Origin: a virus
Reading direction: 5' to 3' (one strand)
Virus record (IMG/VR): IMGVR_UViG_3300024243_000006
Span: 85,318 to 149,317 of that record
Length of the DNA stretch: 64,000 nucleotides
This document shows positions 47,568-49,702 of the stretch, one piece after another. Position numbers and translations under genes: made by a program. The notes beneath the pieces were generated by a model. That model made no database searches. It saw only the letters and a program-made list of their open reading frames with translations, and had not been told where the DNA came from. The first letter of the stretch is position 1; every line of letters starts with the position of its first letter.

Positions 47568-49230
47568 AGCATTTTTAATTGGTGAGGATTGTAGGAAATC
47601 TATTCTGAGTGGTGTGAAAAAATTGGCAGATTTGGTTTTAGTAACTATGGGCCCAAAAGGTAAAAATGTAATCATAGGTCCCATTTCTCCTCAGCCAGGA
47701 GTCCCGCCGATAGGTGCTCCAATAAGCACTAAAGATGGAGTTACTGTCGCAAGAGCTATAACTCTATCCGATCCATTTGAAGAAATGGGGTGTCAATTAG
47801 TTAAAGAGGTAGCAGGAAGAACTTGTGATATAGCAGGCGATGGAACAACTACCTCTGTAGCCCTTACTTATGAAATATTCTCTAACGGCTTGAGTCTTAT
47901 GGATAACGGTTACAGTGCTCTTGATTTGAGAGACGGACTGAACCTGGGACTTAAGTTGGTCCTTGCAGAAATCGAGAAGATGGCGAAGCCTGTTGATACG
48001 AAAGAAGATCTTCTAAATGTATCTGTCATCTCCACAAACAACGACCCAGACCTTGGTGGCGTAATCGCTGAGGCTTATGAGCTTGTGGACAGAAATGGAC
48101 TGGTAACAGCAGAGGCTGTGCCTGGAGTTGATAACGCTGCACGCCTCGTGAATGGTGTGGAGCTTAAGTCTGGCTATGTACATCCCGCATACCTTGATAG
48201 CGGAGAGACTTCGGCATCTCTTGACAAGTGCTATGTTCTCATGCTTGACAGGGAGTTATCACATCTTCAGGAATGCGAAGACTTGCTCACAGCGATAGCA
48301 GGGAAGAATGCAAGTCTACTTATCATTGCTAAGGATGTCACTAAGATCGCCCTGAAGACCCTTGTGCATAATCACAAACATGGAGTCCTTAAGTCCTGTG
48401 CAATTAAGACTCCGACTTTTGGAGCTTACCAGGACAAGTGGGTAGAAGACCTTGCTGTTATCTTCGGCACAACTATCTTCAGTGATGAAAAAGGATTGCC
48501 TTTGTCTGAGGCTACAATAGAAATGCTCGGTTATGCTGAGTCAATTGAGGTTGGTCGTCACAGCACCAAGGTTACAAACCCAAGAAGGGACGAAGCTAAG
48601 ATCAAGGAACAAATGGAACTCTACGGAGAAGACCAAGCTCTTCTTCTTGGAGACAGAGAGCGATTCGATATCAGTAAGAGAAAGCAATTTCTTACGAGTC
48701 GTGCTGCCATCATCACAGTAGGTTACTTAACCGAACTTGAGCTTAGAGAGAAAGGTGATAGAGCAGACGATGCAATGGCTGCTGTCTCCGCTGCCATTGA
48801 AGAAGGCATTGTTCCTGGCGCAGGAATGGCACTATTCAATGCGGCAAGTAAAGTTGAGTTAGACAAGGTAGATGAGAAGTTTAGACCTGCGGTAGAACTA
48901 TTGATAGGGGCATGTACACGTCCTGCTATCCAGATTTTAATGAATGCAGGTGAGGACGTTGAAACTATCCTTGCACAAATTGTATCTGCTGCTCCGAACG
49001 ATTCGTATGGCTATAACGCAGCCACTTGCGAGTTCGGAGACTTATTTGACATGGGCGTAGTAGACCCAAAGAAAGTAACCAGAACAGCCCTACAGAATGC
49101 ATTAAGTATCGCTTTGCTGTTGTTGACTACCGAAGCTGTAATTGTTGATAGACCTGACGATCCTTCGTCATGGCAGCCACCTGCTGGTTTCCGTTTACCC
49201 TCTGAAAATGGTATGAATCATAAGTATTAA
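47560..49230 (+). CDS. groEL: GroEL-like chaperonin 2, divergent
   Basis: A second group I chaperonin (556 residues). ATP-pocket blocks are kept: [32 protein letters not shown] and [11 protein letters not shown] with [10 protein letters not shown]. Between GPKGKNV and TKDGV it carries a longer loop ([16 protein letters not shown]) than usual, in the part of the equatorial domain that touches the neighbouring subunit. It lacks a GGM tail. The first 350 bases use AT-richer codons than the rest. The gene is flanked by HNH genes on both sides. Confidence 0.95.
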
Positions 49231-49231
49231 G

Positions 49232-49702
49232 ATGATTTGTTCTAAATGCGGAAAGAATAAAGATTTAGACCATTTTCATTTCAGGAAAGAAAGTGGAAAG
49301 TATCGAAAACAGTGCAGGGATTGCTTTAATCAAAAGTGTTCAGAATATAGAAAGAAGAATTCTGAAACAATTAAGGCAAGGAACTACAAATACAGCAGAA
49401 CAGTTGATGGCAGATTTGCGAGCTTTAAGGCATTAGCCAAAACTAAAGGCATTGAGCAAAAATTAACAAAAGAGGACTTTGAGGAATTACAAACTAACCA
49501 ATGCAACTACTGTGGAGATAATTTCGATAGAGGTACCGGATATGGGATTGATAGAGTTGATTCTAATATTGGGTATTACAAAGAAAACTCCGTAGCATGT
49601 TGTAGCAAATGTAATTTCGCGAAACACGAATTAGAATATAACGAATTTGTTCAGCATATTTTGAAAATGGCAAAACACATTGGGCTAAATCACAAATACT
49701 AA
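49232..49702 (+). CDS. HNH homing endonuclease 3, carrying a groEL tail copy
   Basis: N-terminal CxxC fingers (MICSKCGKNK, QCRDCFNQKC) and an HNH core (CNYCGDNFDRG, YGIDRVDSNIGY, NSVACCSKCNFAKH) define the family shared with the gene at 19484. It begins two bases after the chaperonin 2 stop without a good ribosome site. Its last residues, GLNHKY-stop, repeat the chaperonin's GMNHKY-stop with mostly third-position changes, as if the enzyme gene inserted into the end of groEL and kept the displaced tail. Confidence 0.9.
   Translation: MICSKCGKNKDLDHFHFRKESGKYRKQCRDCFNQKCSEYRKKNSETIKARNYKYSRTVDGRFASFKALAKTKGIEQKLTKEDFEELQTNQCNYCGDNFDRGTGYGIDRVDSNIGYYKENSVACCSKCNFAKHELEYNEFVQHILKMAKHIGLNHKY

Follow-up and report, generated by a model that had tools for sequence, protein, structure and literature searches.

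Mobile endonuclease ORFs that enter a host gene near its 3' end and bring a foreign C-terminus with them have been described in fungal mitochondria for atp6, atp9, cox2 and nad3 (PMC3630166). In these hybrids, with Allomyces macrogynus atp6 and Glomus sp. atp6, atp9, cox2 and nad3 as examples, the native C-terminus is left downstream of the inserted ORF, and the differences between the two copies are largely synonymous (PMC3630166). Among the free-standing homing endonucleases of phage T4 (mob/seg), mobE follows nrdA with a UAAUGA overlap, for which coupled translation was proposed (PMC2988022), and F-CphI of cyanophage S-PM2 is a small free-standing Endo VII-like endonuclease adjoining a conserved gene (PMC6083498). 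Our limited survey of the literature, largely open-access, retrieved no phage case in which a homing endonuclease gene is bracketed by two copies of a gene end.

The stretch of DNA analyzed here (hereafter the window) comprises the final 64 kb of a virus record 149 kb long. The same sequence is found, identical, in three IMG/VR contigs, one of which is 395 kb long, and we therefore regard its source as a large tailed phage. The chaperonin gene groEL-2, an HNH-like gene and recA follow one another consecutively on the plus strand, and their features are collected in Table 1. We propose that the HNH-like gene was inserted in the end of groEL-2 together with a replacement tail for the chaperonin, whose old end was left stranded on the nuclease, a reading to which we assign a probability of roughly 0.7.

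Table 1. Coordinates of features at the groEL-2/recA junction, in window positions.
Feature	Position	Strand	Evidence
groEL-2, 556-aa phage chaperonin, gene hit by the proposed insertion	47560..49230	+	PF00118 E=4e-53; phrog_5725 chaperonin groEL E=4e-123
Possible RNA hairpin, groEL tail paired with early HNH codons	49203..49278	+	inverted repeat; predicted fold
Upstream tail GMNHKY-stop, putative replacement end now serving groEL-2	49210..49230	+	16/22 bases shared with downstream tail
Inferred insert of 472 bp, made up of the replacement groEL tail and the HNH gene as far as the junction	49210..49681	+	missing from L008 and ~40 related groEL-recA junctions
HNH-like endonuclease gene, 156 aa, of which 1-150 are HNH-derived and 151-156 apparently stem from groEL	49232..49702	+	phrog_1035 endonuclease VII E=2.4e-25, residues 2-149
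Downstream tail GLNHKY-stop, putative displaced groEL end forming the HNH C-terminus	49682..49702	+	L008 groEL end: same peptide, stop and TAAGGA context
recA ribosome site GGAG, still adjoining the putatively displaced groEL stop	49703..49706	+	sequence; same overlap in relatives
recA/UvsX-like recombinase, next in the conserved order	49713..50885	+	PF00154 E=2e-52; phrog_97 UvsX-like E=5e-61

Both tails can be read directly from the sequence. groEL-2 ends in GGT ATG AAT CAT AAG TAT TAA G (49210-49231; the tail is spelled GGTATGAATCATAAGTATTAAG), and the HNH-like gene in GGG CTA AAT CAC AAA TAC TAA G (49682-49703), which translate into GMNHKY and GLNHKY, respectively. The two stretches agree at 16 of 22 bases, and third positions hold five of the six differences within the 18 coding bases (chance probability of at least five, 0.004), so that an earlier note on this DNA was exact both in its tail sequences and in placing most of the changes at third positions. 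The match between the two gene ends is far beyond chance. Within the window, a C-terminal match to GMNHKY at more than two of six residues is confined to groEL-2 (6/6) and the HNH gene (5/6) among 208 ORFs of at least 60 aa, while among 1470 distinct ORFs from related loci, all those with at least four C-terminal matches are groELs, bar this HNH gene. A scan of 22,905 ORF pairs (1.75 Mb) recovered just a handful of stop-aligned tail copies; the sample includes 50 kb each of T4, SPO1, T5 and ICP1, in which no such copy was found above threshold.

The earlier note had predicted that in relatives without the HNH gene, groEL would end like one of the two tails and run straight into the ribosome site of recA, and this is the arrangement we observed. 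Of the relatives that lack the HNH gene, L008 is the closest (groEL 66% and recA 57-58% identical); its groEL ends GGC TTA AAT CAC AAA TAT TAA GGA, with the recA ATG 13 nt further on and no insert. Searches based on recA and groEL gave ~40 further loci with the same groEL-recA junction, a set that includes near-duplicates and of which 28 were kept after thinning. The groEL end is WRxPxxGxLNHKY-like ((L)NHKY/H-type) in nearly all of these ~40 loci, the exceptions being HKR in L044 and L075, RIIK in L046 and L077, and NHDY in L049. The recA ribosome site overlaps or closely trails the groEL stop in nearly all of the related loci, and the overlap of stop codon and Shine-Dalgarno sequence seen in the window is also present in L008, L031, L049, L060 and others. 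Leucine is the residue of the group within the groEL end, methionine being found only in the groEL of the window and in L051. Because the junctions of the relatives look like this, GLNHKY-TAA-GGAG-ATG(recA), with which the HNH gene now ends, has the form of a groEL end in this phage group. Searches for relatives of recA in prokaryote genomes found none. Split or lengthened matches point to intein- or intron-like inserts in several related recA genes (L066-L071); in the window itself, a DNA polymerase III alpha-like ORF of 1591 aa (39094-43869) has an apparent intein-like insert, as judged from its translation.

The nuclease domain of the HNH-like protein matches phrog_1035 (E=2.4e-25) and phrog_3118 HNH (E=3.7e-12), whereas no Pfam or NCBIfam family scored above its cut-off, and a search of solved structures returned no useful match. 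CxxC pairs, DRxD, N119 and CxxCN are conserved in the alignment. The full DHHRN motif of Endo VII and the canonical first HNH histidine are absent: the position reads IDRVD, where the usual first catalytic histidine is an arginine, a variant common to the aligned homologues. We presume that the gene encodes a free-standing homing endonuclease. An intron- or intein-encoded enzyme was rejected, as the gene forms an ORF of its own between two intact genes, each with its own stop and start, and interrupts no frame. Family homology stops at residue 149-150, just short of the GLNHKY tail; homologues in at least 17 distinct loci end at differing places, none of them in LNHKY, and an alignment with four homologues revealed no common C-terminus. 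Since the homology stops there and the homologues end otherwise, GLNHKY is an addition foreign to the nuclease and, in agreement with what the earlier note had assumed, no ordinary ending of the HNH homologues examined. Another HNH-like gene of the window (19484-20195 region) overlaps at its end the start of an HU-like gene by ~70 bases, and its orthologues (L089, L090; records of L032, L033) stop right at the HU start.

In the event that we propose, a free-standing HNH-like and presumably homing endonuclease gene would have entered groEL-2 within its seven final codons, immediately upstream of the point where the groEL stop overlaps the recA ribosome site. At the start of the 472-bp insert, a replacement GMNHKY-stop would be in frame with groEL-2, and the endonuclease would start after one further base. 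The old GLNHKY-stop would be pushed downstream while still fused to the recA ribosome site; lying in frame, it would supply the C-terminal six residues of the nuclease. Both the chaperonin and recA would stay intact after the insertion. The enzyme would be expected to cut at the groEL/recA junction, and the split and respelled site would shield the carrier from its own enzyme; the insertion reading thus predicts a cleavage target as well as a mechanism of immunity.

The layout of the locus is tight. The HNH start codon at 49232 lies one base past the groEL-2 stop, and the HNH stop directly abuts the recA GGAG, with the recA ATG at 49713. The HNH-like gene has no Shine-Dalgarno sequence of its own, and its junction with groEL-2 reads UAAGAUG; because the start follows the groEL stop after one base and no Shine-Dalgarno is present, coupled translation of the endonuclease from groEL-2 is suggested. 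A hairpin found post hoc at 49203-49278 (-21.2 kcal/mol, z = -2.2, with 6 of 200 shuffles equally good) places the HNH start codon between its two arms and, if the predicted fold forms, might conceivably dampen translation initiation of the HNH gene. In favour of an insertion, the insert is AT-rich compared with its neighbours, the GC content being 0.34 for the HNH gene versus 0.45 for groEL and 0.46 for recA. On the other side of the chaperonin, a further HNH gene (46842-47567) overlaps the groEL-2 start, so that endonuclease genes occupy both flanks. The first ~270 bases of groEL-2 (47560-47830) have an HNH-gene-like GC3 of 0.22-0.27 versus about 0.32-0.50 further on, and are possibly a co-conversion tract. 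Between the RuvC-like gene and this upstream HNH gene there is a strong inverted repeat (46790-46841) with 19-nt arms that are 89% complementary.

The direction of the event, i.e., insertion into groEL-2, we infer from the position and context of the two tails. The downstream GLNHKY tail is read as native because it is positioned at recA, carries the leucine of the family and continues into TAAGGA as in L008, all of which supports its being the displaced groEL end; an empty allele ending in GLNHKY-TAAGGAGACATAAATG is the form expected if this is so. The replacement tail would have been brought with the insert from the groEL of another phage. Thus, of the homing insertion put forward by the earlier note, the entry into the last codons of groEL-2 and the reuse of the old tail as HNH C-terminus are supported, while its title, according to which the HNH gene ends with a recoded copy, runs opposite to the better-supported assignment, in which the old copy sits on the HNH gene and the replacement on groEL. 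Neither DNA identity nor parsimony was informative enough to assign the two tails to lineages, and this approach was dropped. The upstream tail is closest to L051 (20/22 bases) and the downstream tail to L008 (as L059) and L032 (19/22 bases each), but with tails of 21 bases, parsimony on the groEL tree, with either tail at the window tip, is neutral at 105 versus 104 steps. A foreign conversion tract inside groEL was also sought and discarded, as there is no break and L008 remains the best match along most of the gene; any foreign tract would be short, because the groEL body is closest to L008 to near its end. Likewise, TGAAAATGG, a 9-nt repeat with one copy at 49203 (groEL) and the other near 49663 (HNH gene), was rejected as an insertion boundary, since the HNH alignment extends past it.

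The groEL/recA junction is a repeat target, because L007 carries a second, unrelated endonuclease gene there (2965-3873, 302 aa, with a match to phrog_559/phrog_9084 homing endonuclease). That gene starts directly after the groEL stop, and we found no tail remnant behind it. Endonuclease genes adjoin recA/uvsX also in T4 (segA), Streptomyces phage Tomas and Mycobacterium phage Kumao. Copies of gene ends were observed at other loci too. In L064, an SSB-like gene ends in 20 bases (FNFENE-stop; 1728-1749) that recur exactly at 3246-3267, where they close a gene two ORFs downstream, at its overlap with a RuvC-like gene start; L063, a related locus, has the same genes without the 20-nt SSB tail sequence. 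L176 contains an exact direct repeat of ~30 nt (5866-5898, 6051-6085) across a gene end and the next start, flanking a 63-aa ORF. A tail match in L109 was set aside, as its neighbours are secreted repeat-type proteins.

Two similar gene ends could also have arisen by local duplication, in which the phage's own groEL tail was copied by target-site duplication or template switching and then drifted, with neither a foreign tail nor protective recoding. The exact tail duplications in L176 and L064 are in keeping with such a process. In that case, however, the copy on the HNH gene would have been freed from groEL selection, yet five of the six differences fall on third positions (P=0.004), and the HNH-borne peptide keeps the family leucine. 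This clustering argues that the tails diverged while both were selected for one peptide, and because both diverged under such selection, two groEL ends from different phages are favoured over a drifting local duplicate; we thus regard duplication in place as unlikely. The same final anatomy would also result from the reverse order of events, if the HNH gene already stood after groEL and the phage then acquired recA, along with the groEL tail preceding it, by recombination with an HNH-free phage, so that this tail was fused in frame to the HNH gene. The downstream tail runs on into the recA ribosome site just as it does in L008, which fits this order, and so does L007 with its endonuclease gene after groEL and no tail copy, but an illegitimate in-frame crossover at precisely the point where the HNH domain ends would be needed on top of an earlier insertion, which makes this course quite improbable.

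Selection for a common function offers a different kind of explanation, namely that NHKY is a docking signal in both proteins and was gained by the HNH protein for this purpose. The groEL tip is indeed conserved across the phage group, and two L064 proteins have an SSB-like acidic tip in common; no further ORF in the window carries an NHKY tip, however, and the HNH copy is located exactly at the recA junction where relatives have their groEL end, down to TAAGGA, so that we give this idea very little credence. Hardly any weight is left for coincidence or an ordinary HNH ending. In its favour, the window HNH gene 19484-19960 has IGKND past its last helix and has I, G and N in common with IGLNH, but it shares just two of six residues, its orthologues L089 and L090 end in YQKGKE, and no chance match among the 208 window ORFs exceeds two of six. 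Counted against the insertion reading itself are the neutral parsimony result on the 21-base tails, the shortness of any foreign tract, the arginine at the place of the usual first catalytic histidine in a putative endonuclease, the lack of a donor, the L007 endonuclease gene without a tail copy, and the tail copies near genes that are not recognized as endonucleases (L064, L176). As to the donor, a search of the viral collection for this HNH gene beside another groEL yielded the identical contigs, apparently of the same phage, and one remote relative, and whole-record searches of 22 related contigs gave remote HNH paralogues only.

If the insertion reading is right, the locus documents, at the level of sequence, the way in which a free-standing endonuclease gene enters the coding sequence of a compact operon and leaves the neighbours unharmed. 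We would suggest, tentatively and as a possibility on which we would not bet, that some phage homing endonuclease genes carry a portable, respelled end of their target gene, with the old end joining the nuclease. Under such a model, insertion at a gene end would cost the host nothing and destroy the recognition site, giving phages a counterpart to the gene hybrids of mitochondria. Similar events in phage genomes could be recognized by a simple signature, namely consecutive genes with stop-aligned copies of one tail.

Set beside the described systems, the locus shares with Allomyces and Glomus an endonuclease ORF near the 3' end of a conserved gene at a site that is empty in L008 and ~40 other loci, an in-frame copy of the C-terminus before the ORF and a second one after it, and tail differences that are largely synonymous. 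It departs from them in that the enzyme is a phage HNH/Endo VII-like protein rather than LAGLIDADG or GIY-YIG, that the duplicated stretch is just seven codons, and that the displaced end is apparently read as the endonuclease C-terminus and joined to the ribosome site of the next gene. As with the T4 mob/seg enzymes, an intronless endonuclease gene lies between essential replication/recombination genes, starts at the upstream stop and appears to be coupled to it; in contrast, the same scan detected no duplicated gene end in the first 50 kb of T4, and homing, demonstrated for several T4 enzymes, is here presumed from sequence. Like F-CphI, the enzyme is small, Endo VII-like and encoded beside a conserved gene, and putatively protects itself through its own altered copy of the target. 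F-CphI, however, owes its protection to a group I intron and carries the motif DHHRN, whereas here the motif reads IDRVD..N..N, and any protection would arise from the split and respelled gene end. On the sequence evidence the insertion scar is well supported as real, and we consider it to be the phage version of the event known from fungal mitochondria, whose hybrids it resembles in anatomy.
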